Assembly: GCA_023700255.1 (NCBI GenBank)
Contig: JAJPRD010000002.1
Location: 1 to 42,747, forward strand
DNA: 42,747 bases
Reading direction: 5' to 3'
Origin: Candidatus Thalassarchaeaceae archaeon
GTDB lineage: Archaea; Thermoplasmatota; Poseidoniia; Poseidoniales; Thalassarchaeaceae
How positions within the stretch are numbered: position 1 is the stretch's first letter; each line of letters begins with the position of its first letter. The position numbers and the translations under genes are program-made. Of the stretch, positions 18,600 to 24,851 are shown in pieces. The notes under the pieces are model-generated. The model saw only the letters and a list, made by a program, of their open reading frames with translations. It did no database searches and was not told where the DNA came from.

Positions 18600-19951
18600 T
18601 GATTTTCATGTACCTAATAACTGTTGAAGGTGGTGATGGAAGTGGCAAAGGTCTTGCGACAAAAGTGATTGCCCAAGTCCTAGAAAAAGAATTTACTTTT
18701 TCTTCTGTTGAAGTAACCGGTGAACCTAGGAGAGATCACCCTCTTGGAAGGCTCGCCATAAACTCTGTAAGGACAAAAACTATGACTCCAGAAGGTGAAG
18801 CAGGTCTCTTTGCAGCAGATCGTGTCGATCATTCTCATGGGTGGATTTTACCTCGTTTAGAGGAAGGGAAAGTAGTTGTTAGTGAAAGAAATATACATTC
18901 TTCTCTAGTATATCAAGGAATAGTAGGTGGTTTGGGAATTGAAAGAGTATCACACATGAACTCAGCAGCTCTTGTTCCCGACCTTTGTATATGGGTTGAT
19001 TGTGACCCTGAATTAGCTCTAAACAGAATAAGAACTGGAACATTGCGGATTCATTCTGAAAAAGAAGAATACTTCGAAACAAGTTCATTACAAAAAGAGA
19101 TTAGAGCTGGTTATCACAGTCTTCTTTCAGGAGAAATAGAAATGCCAACACCTTTTGATATGGGGGCAATTATAGGACCGGTATTAAATGAAGGAAGCGA
19201 AGAAGAATTTAAGAATGAATTAAGGCTAAGAATTAGGAGGTTTATACATTCTCATCCTACTCCTATCAATGTTAAAACAGAGGTTGTTGAACAAAATCTC
19301 ATTCGAAAACTTCTGATTAAGAGTAAGGGTCAAACTACTCTCGTTGGCCTTGGCGTCGAACCGAATTCTAATCGTGATGCATGGCTTAGTGGTCAAAAAC
19401 CATGGAGGATACTTAAAAATGCGCAATTACACCATGATGAATCATTATTGAAATCTCCTAATAGTATCATATCTTATATCCCAAAAAGTGTTCTTGCCCA
19501 TTCTATTACCTCTATCGTTGGTACTTTATCTATTATGTCTAATGCAGATGTTGGTGAATTACGTTCTGCTCAAGGACCTGTGAGAGCGGTTTCTGAAAGT
19601 CACTCTCATAAGATCATTAGATATCTGAACGATGACTTAGATTGGTTACATCAACATAGATCATTGATAGGCCGCGATACTGCTCGAAACCAAATGAAAG
19701 AAAAATTTCTCCCATTCGGTTACCTTATACTTGCGATATGGCCATTAAGATCTACTATCCAAAAATGGATTAAAGAAAATCCAAACACTCATCTCAGATA
19801 TTGTTTAGGTCAAATAATCCGTTCAGGCGATAATCCTGTAGCAATTGATAATTGTTTACAGAGAATTAAAATTTTAGGTTCAGGAATACCTGATACGGAT
19901 TTACCTGGTGACGAATCTAGCCTGGTTGATTGGTGGCAAGGTAATTATTAA
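18599..19951 (+). CDS. tmk: Thymidylate kinase-like P-loop protein with an unrecognised C-terminal domain
   Basis: Residues 1-215 follow the thymidylate kinase fold: P-loop EGGDGSGKG (10-18), EPRRDHPLGRLA (42-53), LFAADRVDHSHGWILPRLEEGKVV (70-93), the DR(Y/H)-equivalent SERNIHSSLVYQG (95-107), and DCDPELALNRI with an Arg-rich lid. Two motifs deviate. The P-loop has Gly instead of Ser/Thr after the lysine, and DRY is ERN. Residues 225-450 form an extra mostly helical domain that is not recognised; typical Tmk is about 200-215 residues. The start at ATG 18599 has GAGGA just upstream; ATG 18608 is an alternative. dTMP kinase activity is likely but not certain. The stop codons of this gene and the convergent DUF2085 gene overlap by 4 bases. 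Confidence 0.8.
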   Translation: MIFMYLITVEGGDGSGKGLATKVIAQVLEKEFTFSSVEVTGEPRRDHPLGRLAINSVRTKTMTPEGEAGLFAADRVDHSHGWILPRLEEGKVVVSERNIHSSLVYQGIVGGLGIERVSHMNSAALVPDLCIWVDCDPELALNRIRTGTLRIHSEKEEYFETSSLQKEIRAGYHSLLSGEIEMPTPFDMGAIIGPVLNEGSEEEFKNELRLRIRRFIHSHPTPINVKTEVVEQNLIRKLLIKSKGQTTLVGLGVEPNSNRDAWLSGQKPWRILKNAQLHHDESLLKSPNSIISYIPKSVLAHSITSIVGTLSIMSNADVGELRSAQGPVRAVSESHSHKIIRYLNDDLDWLHQHRSLIGRDTARNQMKEKFLPFGYLILAIWPLRSTIQKWIKENPNTHLRYCLGQIIRSGDNPVAIDNCLQRIKILGSGIPDTDLPGDESSLVDWWQGNY

Positions 19952-20697
19952 TCTTTAATCACTAGTTTAGCATTAGCAGGAAGTTTTACTGATCCAGCAT
20001 CCTGAAATTTATTTGGCTTAGAACTGATTGCAGCACAAAACCACCAAGAAAGAATAAAACCTGCCCCCATTCCCGTGATTAATCTGATTGTATTTGTAGA
20101 TTCATATAATGTTAATAGTTGTGTGAAACCATCAATTCCTATTGGGATAGTGCCTAAGGCAAGCAAAGTAATCATAGCTAGCATTCTTCTATCTTTTTCG
20201 TATACAAATTCAATTTTTTCATCACTAAATACAGATAAGAAAGAATCTCTTATAGTCCATCGATTTAAACCTTTTTTCCTCCACAAAAGAGCCCCGGCTG
20301 CCAACCCGATAAATAATCCTACATCTCTTGCACAAACTGCTAATTGATTCCCATTAATTTCCCATGAGCGTTCATGTTTTTGGTGACAATTTAAATCTCC
20401 AAATGCGTAAACAAATGCTGCAATCGGATTTAATTCAGTCCAACTAAATGCTCCTATTTCTTCTTGATTATGTCCTATTTCAGCATTTTCTCCATGATTA
20501 TTATTACCCCATGAACCCCAACCATCTTCTGTAGCGTAATCAAACCTATTTGCTCTTCCGGATAAATCAGGTACTGAATTTGTTGCTAAAAGAAGAGGAG
20601 TGATAAAAAGTAGTAGAACATAACCTCCGGTTAAAGATGCCATGATAAATCCAATCTTTTTTTCGGTCAATCTTTCATTTCTACCATTAGCAAGCAT
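19948..20697 (-). CDS. DUF2085 family membrane protein
   Basis: The 249-residue protein has about five hydrophobic segments. It shows the conserved signatures of DUF2085: NCHQKHERSWEINGNQLAVCARDVGLFIG in the middle and PIGIDGFTQLLTLYESTNTIRLITG near the C-terminus. The paired cysteines and histidine in CHQ and CAR suggest metal or redox chemistry, but the family has no established function. It is the last gene of the minus-strand suf run, 43 bases after the small cysteine-rich gene. An Asn/Gly/Glu-rich segment (WGSWGNNNHGENAE) forms an early loop. Confidence 0.8.
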   Translation of the reverse strand: MLANGRNERLTEKKIGFIMASLTGGYVLLLFITPLLLATNSVPDLSGRANRFDYATEDGWGSWGNNNHGENAEIGHNQEEIGAFSWTELNPIAAFVYAFGDLNCHQKHERSWEINGNQLAVCARDVGLFIGLAAGALLWRKKGLNRWTIRDSFLSVFSDEKIEFVYEKDRRMLAMITLLALGTIPIGIDGFTQLLTLYESTNTIRLITGMGAGFILSWWFCAAISSKPNKFQDAGSVKLPANAKLVIKD

Positions 20698-20740: not shown

Positions 20741-20881
20741 TTATGGATAAGTTGGAACTCCTTCACAACACGCTTCAACTACTCTTCTACAGGTGGGGCA
20801 TTCCATATGTTGTCTTACTGGTATTGCTGATCCTCTGAAACCACATTCACAAAAGATTTGCTCACAGTGGTCATAATCCAT
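20741..20881 (-). CDS. 46-residue cysteine-rich (zinc-ribbon-like) protein downstream of sufD
   Basis: A short frame reads from ATG 20881 to TAA 20741 on the minus strand and encodes 46 residues. Seven are cysteines (positions 6, 11, 13, 28, 31, 38, 39), arranged as C-x4-C-x-C, CPTC and CC. A CGF...CPTCRR pattern suggests a small zinc ribbon or other metal-binding module. It lies 35 bases after sufD and 43 before the DUF2085 gene, all in one direction, so it is probably part of the suf transcript. The gene is below common length cut-offs and could be missed. Metal type and function are unknown; a link to Fe-S biogenesis is inference from position. Confidence 0.72.
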   Translation of the reverse strand: MDYDHCEQIFCECGFRGSAIPVRQHMECPTCRRVVEACCEGVPTYP

Positions 20882-20916
20882 AACCCTGGTAAGAGAGAGA
20901 GGTACTAATTTGTTTC

Positions 20917-22023
20917 TTATGTAGTCAATGATTTCAGTTCATATTGTAGGTTACCTGCTAGCCACTGATGTAATGTTTCGCTACCCATTTCTGATAGTGT
21001 TGAATTTAGGAATGCTGCAATTAATGCATCTTTTGCATCATCAGGGCTGTAACCTCTCGCTTCTAGATAAAATAACTGTTGTTCATCTATTGGTCCATTG
21101 GCAGTTCCATGACCACAGCCAACTACGTCATGTTCACTAACTTCTAATTCAGGTATACTGTCTGCTTCTGCTTTCTCTGAAAGTAATAAGTTATGGAATA
21201 ATTGACCCGCATCGGCTCCTTTTGCTCCATCTGATACTCTTAGCATCCCCGTACCTATTGTTCTACTATTTCCACCACATGCAGAATGCCAATCTAATCT
21301 GCTAAATGTATTGGGGGCTTGATGATGAATCTCTATGTGGTGATCAATATGCATTTTATTGGCAGATAATATCGATCCTAATACTCGTAAATTACCCCCA
21401 TTCTCATCCATCATATATCTTAGATCAGATTTAGTTCTTTCAGAACCAGAACTAATGCTTCCTGCTTTAACCTGAGCGTCTCTACCAATATTTATTGCAT
21501 CCACTCTTAATAATGTCCCAGAGCTCATTTGCCCAACTAAAATATCGTTAATTATTGTACCTTCTCCTATTTCGCCATTACGTAATAGGCCAAACCATGG
21601 TGCACTACCGACTATTTGAGTTACTATTTCTAATTCACAATGTATTCCAATCTTCATAGTCAAATTCATTGCAGAATTAGAGTTTCCTGAATCTATTTTA
21701 AGTATTACTGGTTGATCGAGAATTGTATTATTTTTCACTTCCAGTGTGAACTTAGAATGACTTGAAACAGCATCTATGAAATTCATTGATACAGGGTCAC
21801 TGTATGTATTTTTTCTTGTATCTATATCTTCTTTAACTATTGAGATACTTTCAGAGATATCGCTTCCATCAAGTAAAAACAAACTTACTTCAGGTATCGC
21901 GAAATCTTCAGGTATTTCTTTAATATTTCCAGTTGGATGGACTTTCTTCCATGGAGAATACCTCCAAAGATGATTCGAATTTTTTGGTTCCTCAAGAGAG
22001 AGGTATGTTTGGCCAGGATTCAT
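20917..22023 (-). CDS. sufD: Fe-S cluster assembly protein SufD
   Basis: SufD partners SufB and SufC in the SufBC2D scaffold. The 368-residue product shows the SufB/SufD beta-helix fold in its middle and the C-terminal family signature LEVSEHDVVGCGHGTANGPIDEQQLFYLEARGYSPDDA. The start ATG 22023 is supported by AGAGGAG nine bases upstream; an in-frame TTG at 22047 overlapping sufB is less likely. It lies 16 bases after sufB. The N-terminal part (before about residue 90) is divergent, as usual for SufD. Confidence 0.9.
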   Translation of the reverse strand: MNPGQTYLSLEEPKNSNHLWRYSPWKKVHPTGNIKEIPEDFAIPEVSLFLLDGSDISESISIVKEDIDTRKNTYSDPVSMNFIDAVSSHSKFTLEVKNNTILDQPVILKIDSGNSNSAMNLTMKIGIHCELEIVTQIVGSAPWFGLLRNGEIGEGTIINDILVGQMSSGTLLRVDAINIGRDAQVKAGSISSGSERTKSDLRYMMDENGGNLRVLGSILSANKMHIDHHIEIHHQAPNTFSRLDWHSACGGNSRTIGTGMLRVSDGAKGADAGQLFHNLLLSEKAEADSIPELEVSEHDVVGCGHGTANGPIDEQQLFYLEARGYSPDDAKDALIAAFLNSTLSEMGSETLHQWLAGNLQYELKSLTT

Positions 22024-22039
22024 TAAAAAAAACTCCTCT

Positions 22040-23464
22040 TTAACCAATACTTCCTTCCATTTCCAAAGCCATCAATTTATTTAATTCAACAGCATATTCC
22101 ATAGGAAGCTCTCTTGTAAATGGTTCAAAGAATCCATTAACAATTAATGCTAAAGATTCTTCTTCTGTGTGCCCTCGACTCATAAGATAAAATAATTGAT
22201 TATCACTTACTTTTGAAACACTTGCTTCATGTTCGCAACGAGCAGTTGGATTTGCGACTTCCATTGTAGGGTATGTATCGCTCCTACTATCTTCATCTAA
22301 TATGAGTGCGTCACAAACAACGTTTAGTTTGCAGTTTTCTGCTTTAGGTGATACAGTAACTAAACCTCTGTAAGAACCTCTTCCTCCGTCCTTACTTATT
22401 GATTTAGACAAAATCTTGCTTGTAGTATTACTTGCGAGATGATGTATTTTAGCTCCTGCATCCTGATGTTGTCCTGCTCCTGAATATGCAACTGAAATAA
22501 CTTCTGCATGAGATCCTTCTCCTTTTAGAATGACAGATGGATATTTCATTGTTAATTTACTCCCTATGTTTCCATCCACCCATTCTATTTTTGAATTCTC
22601 ATGAGCGATGCCTCTTTTAGTTACAAGATTATACACATTAGCACTCCAGTTTTGTATTGTGCTGTATCTAATATGTGCACCTGGTAGTGCTATAAGTTCT
22701 ACAACTGCTGAGTGCAAAGAATCGCTAGAAAAAGTCGGTGCTGTGCACCCTTCTACGTAGTGTATACTACTTCCTTCATCAGCAATTATCAAAGTTCTTT
22801 CAAATTGACCCATGTTATTTGCATTTATCCTGAAATATGCTTGGACGGGCAACTCAACATGGACTCCTTTTGGCACATAGATAAATGATCCACCAGACCA
22901 AACTGCTGTATTTAGAGCACTAAATTTGTTATCAGAGAAAGGGACAACACTACCAAACCATTTCTTTACAAGATCTTCATGTTCTCTCAAACCACTATCC
23001 ATATCTAGGAATATTACTCCTTGTTTTTGTAAATCTTCCCTAATAGAATGATACACTGCTTCAGAGTCATATTGAGCGGTAACTCCACTGAGCCATTTTT
23101 GTTCAGCATCTGGTATCCCTAACTTATCGAATGTATTTCTGATATCTTCTGGAACATCATCCCAATCATTTTCCGTAGCCTCTGATGATCGGAGATAATA
23201 ACAGATCTTATCAAAATCTATGTCGTTAAGCATTGACATATTACCCCATGTAGGCATAGGCCTTTCATCAAAATGTTTGAATGCTTTAACTCTCATTTCT
23301 GTCATCCATTCAGGTTCATTCTTTAATTCTGAGATGTCTCTTACTACTTGCTCAGAGAGACCTGCATCAAAACGGATAGTTGGATTTTCAGGGTCATGCC
23401 AGCCAGCTTTGTAATCGCCAACGACATCTCGTGCTTCACTTGTTGTCACTTCTTTCATCTCCAT
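22040..23464 (-). CDS. sufB: Fe-S cluster assembly scaffold SufB
   Basis: SufB is the core scaffold on which Fe-S clusters are built. The 474-residue length matches bacterial and archaeal SufB. Signatures include [54 protein letters not shown], the cluster/persulfide region [20 protein letters not shown], and [27 protein letters not shown] at the C-terminus. The ATG shares one base with the sufC stop (TAATG), indicating coupling. No SufS or SufU is visible within the window; Nfu lies divergently upstream. Confidence 0.96.
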
Positions 23465-24228
23465 TATTCATTTTTCTCAGGTTCTAGCCAGTCATAACCT
23501 TTTTCTTCAAGCTCAAGAGCTAATTCAGGCCCACCTGTTTTGACAATCTTTCCTGCAATTAGGACATGGATTTTGTCTGGCTGGACGTGTTCTAGTATTC
23601 TCGAATAATGTGTAATAATTAGTGCACCTGAATCTGTACCTCTAATTGCAGCATTAATCCCTTTAGCAACAGTCCTTATACCGTCTATATCTAAACCAGA
23701 ATCAGTTTCATCAAGAATCGCTAATTTTGGTGTAATCAACATTAATTGTAATATCTCAAATCTTTTCTTTTCTCCGCCACTGAATCCATCATTGACATAT
23801 CTTCCGAGGAAAGATGATGGTATATCCAACTCTTTCATACTATCCTTGAGTTTTTTTCTAAATTCTGAACCCTTGGCTGCATCTTCTCCTAGGATCGCTG
23901 ATACTGACTTACGAAGAAAGTTCCCAACTTGTAATCCGGGTACTGATTGAGGATATTGGAATGAAAGAAAAACTCCTTTCCTTGCTCTTTCCCATGGTTC
24001 CATTTCTAGTAGATTTTCACCATTGAGTTCAACAATTCCACTTTCAACTTCATAGTCTGGATGACCCATTATTATGTTAGCAGTAGTAGTCTTACCACTA
24101 CCATTTCTACCCATTATTGCATGAATCTCACCTGGTTTAATGCTCAAATTAATACCTTTAAGGATAGAGGTGTCATCAATCCCAGCATATAAATCTTGGA
24201 TATTTAGTAAGTTTTGCTCATTAGACAT
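23464..24228 (-). CDS. sufC: Fe-S assembly ATPase SufC
   Basis: SufC is the ABC-type ATPase of the SufBCD complex. With ATG 24228 as start the product is 254 residues. Motifs: Walker [12 protein letters not shown]-loop [11 protein letters not shown], signature [13 protein letters not shown], Walker [16 protein letters not shown] and switch histidine IITHYSR. An upstream in-frame ATG (24276) would add 16 residues before the normal SufC N-terminus; a TATA-like TTTATC at about 24306-24311 leaves that start possible. It heads sufC-sufB-sufD and the two small downstream genes. Confidence 0.94.
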
Positions 24229-24350
24229 GCTGTTCCCTAACCTTTCGTGTATGTTCTCCCTTTTCAACCGATGCATATTTCCATGTTCAAATCATTTAGT
24301 AGATAAACTCGAATTGGTCACCCTAAAGTGGAAAAACCTCTTCGGCTTAC

Positions 24351-24851
24351 ATGATGAGTGACTCTCCGGATAATAATCTACCAGCCTCAAAAACTCTTTC
24401 AGAATCATATAGTGAACAAATTGAAGAGATGATGAAAGCAGAGTCAGTTAGAAGAATTCAAGAAAATCATGACCCCAAAGAATTAGAGCGCCTAAATGGA
24501 TTATCTCTAATTCAATTATATGAATCTGATAATCCTGAATTGATCCCGGCCTTAATGTCTAGGTTAGGAGCAGTAAGAGCGGCTCTCGATGGTCATGGTG
24601 GTGGATTAATTATTAGTTCTGCTGAAATTGAAAATACTCATGAGGGTGATAAAGCATTATCTTTAGTAATAGATTTAGATGGTGCTTGTGTTTCTTGCGG
24701 TGCTGCACCAGGAACTCTAAAAGGAATTCAAGATGATTTGCTTATGGATGATGAAATAATTTCGATTCGTTTTTCAGAATCAATGTTAGAATGGTTCGAC
24801 GAGATTCAAAAAGAGTTTGTGCTTAAATTTGGAGGAGTAGTTTTTGTTTAG
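24351..24851 (+). CDS. NifU C-terminal-domain (Nfu) Fe-S scaffold/carrier protein
   Basis: The 166-residue protein has a hydrophilic N-terminal region of about 60 residues. An Nfu domain follows: MSRLGAVRAALDGHGGG (about 69-85), a beta segment, and the cluster-binding CxxC in DGACVSCGAAPGTLKGIQ (C113, C116). Nfu proteins carry Fe-S clusters from the Suf scaffold to target enzymes. It is divergent from sufC with a short shared spacer, supporting a joint role and perhaps joint control. Its stop overlaps the convergent maf stop by 4 bases. Confidence 0.9.
   Translation: MMSDSPDNNLPASKTLSESYSEQIEEMMKAESVRRIQENHDPKELERLNGLSLIQLYESDNPELIPALMSRLGAVRAALDGHGGGLIISSAEIENTHEGDKALSLVIDLDGACVSCGAAPGTLKGIQDDLLMDDEIISIRFSESMLEWFDEIQKEFVLKFGGVVFV

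Follow-up and report, generated by a model that had tools for sequence, protein, structure and literature searches.

The stretch of DNA analysed here (the window, 42,747 nucleotides) carries, within a run of suf genes, a frame of only 46 residues that includes seven cysteines, and this raises two questions: is the frame a gene, and does its product belong to the iron-sulfur machinery encoded next to it? A reading of the window made from its sequence alone had proposed a metal-binding or persulfide-handling partner of SufBCD, perhaps working with the adjoining DUF2085 membrane protein. Marine Group II archaea abound worldwide but have no isolates in culture (PMC6336850), so that conserved microproteins are easily missed in them.

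A small gene under purifying selection in marine archaea

The frame, hereafter orf46, spans positions 20741..20881 of the reverse strand, start and stop codons included, and encodes from its ATG the protein MDYDHCEQIFCECGFRGSAIPVRQHMECPTCRRVVEACCEGVPTYP, with cysteines C6, C11, C13, C28, C31, C38 and C39. On the same strand, 35 bases separate it from the end of sufD upstream (20917..22047) and 43 from the start of the DUF2085 gene downstream (19948..20697), while sufB (22040..23464) and sufC (23464..24276) lie beyond sufD. Pfam and NCBIfam back the identities of SufC, SufB, the SufBD-core protein and DUF2085; against the NCBIfam SufD model, sufD scores 166.9 bits, under the cut-off of 222. The frame, its C-x4-C-x-C, CPTC and CC motifs, its spacers and its orientation were thus correctly described in the sequence-only reading.

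In a protein search of 60 related genomes, matches to orf46 at E <= 9.3e-12 were found in 21, the window's own included, all in one taxonomic family (f1), and one of them, in genome G028, has an internal stop. In a second family, f2, the same search gave no match better than E 0.0017. A scan of a species-genome collection with two short conserved peptide patterns, which could overlook more distant relatives from outside the class, led to 101 confirmed relatives, of which 80 loci were kept. All 80 are from marine euryarchaea, with labels such as Candidatus Thalassarchaeum, Thalassarchaeaceae, Poseidoniales and Marine Group II, and many are named just Euryarchaeota archaeon. The pattern C-x4-C-x-C-G-x13-C-P-x-C-x6-C-C is present in 80/80 of these f1 loci, which were located via conserved peptides of orf46 itself and are therefore biased towards well-conserved copies. 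A profile built from 59 sequences (the window and 58 of the 66 distinct proteins from the loci, eight being excluded) found matches in 90 of the 292 class genomes searched, of which 83 belong to f1 and seven to f3, a family of the same class but of a different order, which we guess to be Marine Group III. Among 389 genomes of the phylum, a search gave matches in 42, of f1 and f3 only, and no f2 genome was among the profile matches at E <= 0.001 in either set. As far as searched, orf46 is restricted to marine archaea of one class.

The coding sequences bear clear marks of selection. The median dN/dS is 0.083 (184 pairs with dS of 0.1 to 1.5), and in 78 of the 81 aligned coding sequences (the other three had N or an incomplete 40-codon block) a single third position is invariant in 40 codons, as compared to 21 first and 25 second positions. 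The 59-sequence f1 alignment has 21 invariant columns, start Met included, and 17 columns are invariant across 23 chosen f1 and f3 sequences. Thus, orf46 is a genuine gene under purifying selection. The sequence-only reading had proposed conservation of the cysteines and the ratio of synonymous to non-synonymous changes as checks, and both bear out its conserved cysteine protein, for which metal binding is plausible. A viral origin was discarded, since none of the 30 viral-contig stretches that matched the peptide pattern encodes a relative; VVEACCEG had two exact viral DNA matches, without a ribbon, and one of these has a stop codon just upstream.

Gene neighbourhoods and the suf genes

The gene lies directly behind sufD in 63 of the 80 loci, on the same strand and at a median distance of 36 bases, which makes a Suf link possible; the next gene is DUF2085 in 31 of these loci and a convergent gene, memX, in 32. 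The other 17 loci have no sufD, with at least 2,948 upstream bases covered (in one of them, L146, 393 of the nearest 1,500 upstream bases are unread). Three of them carry memX and DUF2085, and 14 are in other places. For example, in L148 orf46 is preceded by a thioesterase and small proteins and followed by NfeD-like (below cut-off) and flotillin-like genes, and in L190, from genus g8, its neighbours are MsrA, a radical SAM wyosine-type protein, a desaturase and OsmC. In all seven f3 loci orf46 is found between urocanase and sdhB, convergent with the latter; in L187, the f3 locus scanned by Pfam, urocanase, an iron-sulfur subunit and a fumarate-reductase-type flavoprotein were recognized.

The memX product has approximately 260 residues and appears membrane-anchored by eye (e.g. 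L084, 6221-6991, plus strand). The gene is located between sufD/orf46 and DUF2085 in many relatives, such as L063, L064, L066, L067, L068, L082, L087 and L088, is not at the corresponding place in the window, and in one copy gives a sub-threshold Smr-domain match. A tRNA-Glu gene was seen upstream of orf46 in the four g3-type loci scanned, approximately 30 bases away in L171, L172 and L063 and approximately 400 in L170; it is a possible clue to how the gene moved, and memX-DUF2085 behind a tRNA-Glu counts among the varied settings of orf46. The divergent neighbour of sufC in the window (24351-24851, plus strand) encodes a protein of 166 residues, whose NifU-like match is sub-threshold (E 0.00084), and such a protein also adjoins suf in the four f2 loci examined.

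Most of these genomes are incomplete and a single absence is weak evidence, but assembled sufD-DUF2085 intervals document absence directly. In five genomes (G008 and G011, of the same genus, G031, G017 and G027), sufB, sufC, sufD and DUF2085 are assembled in a row without orf46, and the orf46 profile has no match anywhere in these genomes. In addition, two genomes of genus g7 (G028 and G168) carry decayed copies, in which a stop interrupts the frame and the CC pair is altered (L196, 6001-6141; L065, approximately 2371-2475). Loss of the cysteines or a disrupted frame in close relatives had been named by the sequence-only reading as what would count against it; these two genomes display such damage, besides the outright absences, and the other copies seen are free of it. 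As five genomes keep suf and DUF2085 without orf46 and two others carry broken copies, SufBCD and DUF2085 do not need it. The suggested collaboration with DUF2085 was rejected: DUF2085 is nearly universal, with matches in 136 of the 148 genomes of the family, the five without orf46 among them, whereas orf46 is patchy. Since a tree of 39 SufD proteins did not resolve the family backbone, we make no claim on the number of orf46 losses or moves.

The region upstream of orf46 also bears on its relation to suf. A conserved element, with consensus gaAa...aTT.g..Cc (capitals, at least 80% of sequences; small letters, at least 55%), occupies a fixed place in 57 distinct suf-linked sequences, between approximately -36 and -20 relative to the start codon (20901..20917 on the reverse strand of the window), and could be a promoter of orf46's own. 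No Shine-Dalgarno-like consensus is present before orf46 in these 57 sequences; sufB and sufD, by contrast, have ggagg- or Ggt-like consensus sites. The base at -1 is a pyrimidine in 54/54 distinct 36-mers, all of them related sequences, compared with 87 of the 137 genes of the window's genome that lack a Shine-Dalgarno. In 15 distinct non-suf upstream sequences, a similar A+T block is followed by cc one base further out, while the five f3 upstream regions read share neither the consensus nor a steady pyrimidine at -1.

A matrix of the element, built from 45 sequences, scores above 4 at that distance before just 3 of 251 genes (approximately 321 kb of the window's genome), starts being taken as those of the longest open frames and hence noisy, and a clear match was not seen by eye in six tRNA upstream regions; the element was thus dismissed as a promoter in general use in this genome. 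The positions at which it is strongest (-33, -27 and -21) share one codon phase, which counts against a promoter, as do the f3 regions without the consensus or a steady pyrimidine; against coding, each frame has a stop in 27 to 29 of the 54 distinct stretches compared. The element fits a putative leaderless promoter of orf46's own in f1 and, given its rarity before other genes, such a promoter is something we infer.

Could orf46 nevertheless be a dedicated Suf accessory, co-transcribed with sufCBD, that ferries persulfide sulfur, iron or a nascent cluster to SufBCD or away from it? The tight, same-strand placement behind sufD in most loci and the seven conserved cysteines would be expected of such a protein, and the f3 copies adjoin a gene for an iron-sulfur protein, sdhB, though convergently. 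Known Suf accessory proteins, such as SufE, SufU, SufA and SufT, are likewise small or cysteine-dependent and encoded beside sufBCD; orf46 differs in that its linkage to suf does not hold throughout the family and in that 23 members gave no match to the SufE, SufU, SufA and SufT families of Pfam and NCBIfam at E <= 1. Against the proposal stand the 17 loci elsewhere, the seven f3 copies between urocanase and sdhB and the five genomes that keep SufBCD without orf46. Moreover, all 23 f2 genomes examined match sufD, yet f2 has no orf46 match at E <= 0.001, and the fixed upstream element, together with the lack of a Shine-Dalgarno-like consensus of the kind seen for sufB and sufD, suggests separate expression. 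Varied neighbourhoods and suf-bearing genomes without orf46 led us to reject the SufBCD partnership of the sequence-only reading as the main interpretation, and since orf46 is also found away from suf, we regard a dedicated role in the assembly machinery as improbable. Adjoining sufD in one lineage is no evidence of Suf function; the position of orf46 after sufD would reflect a neighbourhood specific to the lineage rather than membership in the Suf machine.

A putative zinc ribbon and a candidate second site

The cysteines fall into distinct groups. The first knuckle, C11-x-C13-G14 (20840..20851, reverse strand, as for the other motifs), provides putative zinc ligands and is kept in 80/80 f1 loci and, as C-x-C-G, in 7/7 f3 copies. 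The second, C28-P-x-C31 (20789..20800), is predicted to complete the set on the basis of its conservation and of an hhalign alignment to the TiaS zinc ribbon. The vicinal pair C38-C39 within VVEACCEG (20765..20770), a putative second metal or thiol site, is present in all 80 f1 and all seven f3 copies and altered in the two broken ones. C6 (20864..20866) is missing from the seven f3 copies, which carry a cysteine near the C-terminus, a few residues past the CC pair (CCEGNNC, CCEGNSC or CCEGSRC), and preserve a total of seven cysteines in the aligned part; the pattern looks as if one ligand had been swapped. Five f1 copies (L141, L142, L159, L167 and L168) have both C6 and a cysteine as last residue, and in f1 copy L147 extra cysteines are confined to a stretch with many unread bases. 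H25 is invariant in the 59 f1 sequences and retained in 7/7 f3 copies.

We propose that C11-x-C13 and C28-P-x-C31 would hold one structural Zn2+, and that a second, softer metal or thiol site would be made up of C38-C39, probably H25 and one movable cysteine (C6 in f1, the C-terminal cysteine in f3). Polar residues that are near-invariant (R/K23, Q24, H25, E27, E36 and E40) would serve to bind a single conserved partner, either protein or RNA, and orf46 would then act as a small metal-dependent adaptor. The apparent natural ligand swap offers a sharp and cheap test of a second metal site.

Comparisons to known families and structures gave weak matches. With 20 fixed f1 columns besides the start Met, orf46 matched no known family of Pfam, NCBIfam or PHROGs at cut-off or with E below 0.01; the weak matches (DUF1363, BCAM0308, NrdD, HypA and three PHROGs without assigned function) reach E 0.012 at best, and six weak NCBIfam families, among them NrdD, HypA and RNA polymerase subunit P, came from single members. 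NrdD, HypA and subunit P are zinc-site proteins. An AlphaFold2 model built with the 59 sequences has a mean pLDDT of 61.5, with residues 39-46 under 50, and is too poor to be used as a structure. With Foldseek nothing was found at E <= 0.001, and the list of weak hits (best E 2.5) includes several zinc ribbons or fingers, namely RNA polymerase small subunits, TFS4 and TiaS; VIA-align returned NrdD chains only (Z 2.6), and sequence comparison to solved structures returned two RING proteins (E 0.73 and 6.6).

TiaS, recurrent among the weak hits of the initial search of 60 genomes, was for this reason chosen for comparison by hhalign: the core C-x-C-G-x13-C-P-x-C aligned to five f2 TiaS ribbons with a probability of 86 over 30 ungapped columns, a biased result in that the ribbons were cut by a pattern of near-identical spacing. 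This pattern yielded a ribbon in five of six loci, and three of the five TiaS identities were confirmed by Pfam. These three proteins match Pfam Zn_ribbon_TiaS (PF23783) at E 3.6e-10 to 7.2e-10, while 0/23 orf46 members do so at E <= 1, and the family profile, at E <= 10 in the 60 genomes, reached one known TiaS place (G038, E 0.29) and two further long frames, in G013 and G023, without singling out TiaS. Taken together, the biased choice, the profile search and the lack of a Pfam TiaS match reduce the hhalign result to shared spacing. Indeed, orf46 and the C-terminal zinc ribbon of several f2 TiaS proteins (PF23783; PDB 5xob) have the C-x-C-G-x13-C-P-x-C spacing in common, but the ribbon lacks equivalents of C6 and CC, and TiaS frames have 398 to 422 residues with catalytic TCKD and FLD domains, as opposed to 46.

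Possible roles and kinship among microproteins

We consider it somewhat probable that orf46 is a stand-alone, lineage-restricted zinc-ribbon microprotein that has an additional metal or thiol site and acts as a small adaptor, and we infer its metal, fold and partner. A bolder version would make it a new two-site thiol family, in which the zinc ribbon is accompanied by a swapped-cysteine metal or persulfide site, formed by the vicinal CC, the invariant histidine and one cysteine that would have changed place, N-terminal in one lineage and C-terminal in another; such a protein, encoded by a relocating gene with its own promoter, would detect or buffer stress from oxidants or metals on behalf of Fe-S functions. 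We hold this version to be rather doubtful.

Two other roles were weighed against the adaptor. A thiol redox switch, in which a CxC/CxxC zinc centre opens on oxidation and protects Fe-S or other oxidant-sensitive functions, would make use of both knuckles and of the extra vicinal CC, and some neighbours (suf, MsrA with OsmC, sdhB) are tied to oxidative damage or Fe-S. These neighbours, however, were chosen after the fact, and flotillin-NfeD and urocanase do not fit. Hsp33 has a zinc centre that opens on oxidation, with a longer knuckle spacing; orf46 has a CxC and a CxxC motif, with 14 residues between the knuckles, and we judge Hsp33-like switching unlikely. A ribbon that binds nucleic acid, RNA polymerase or the ribosome and regulates gene expression, in the manner of archaeal mini-ribbons, seems to us very doubtful: orf46 is acidic (7 Asp/Glu versus 4 Arg, and no Lys), unlike many nucleic-acid-binding ribbons, and matches no DNA-binding family of Pfam or NCBIfam at its cut-off. 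This role would agree with the presence of RNA polymerase ribbons and TiaS among the weak structural hits and with the TiaS ribbon alignment, and has a precedent in Brz, a small zinc-finger protein described as a regulator of bop in Halobacterium (PMC2253796).

The small adaptor that we favour has counterparts in size and motif among the haloarchaeal C(P)XCG zinc-finger microproteins (HVO_2753, HVO_0758 and others), which are presented in PMC11241148 as proteins of less than 70 residues with two cysteine-pair motifs and mostly unknown functions. The standard motif there is C-x-x-C(G), slight variations being allowed and a longer spacing being named as a variant, and such motifs may bind zinc, another metal or nothing, which AlphaFold2 cannot tell (PMC11241148). 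With 46 residues, C11-x-C13 and C28-P-x-C31, orf46 falls within the size and motif-pair definition and is, like them, an archaeal protein with two knuckles, one of them CPxC. It differs, in a likeness judged by motif, in its first knuckle, C-x-C as opposed to the standard C-x-x-C; in the lack of G after the second knuckle in most members; and in three further conserved cysteines, the vicinal pair included. Thus, orf46 could be considered a new, lineage-restricted variant of the broad zinc-finger microprotein kind, with an unusual first knuckle and an extra thiol set. No paper on the orf46 protein was found in the literature searched. A Thalassarchaeaceae-specific module of 39 protein families has been reported (PMC9258230), and orf46 may be one of them.
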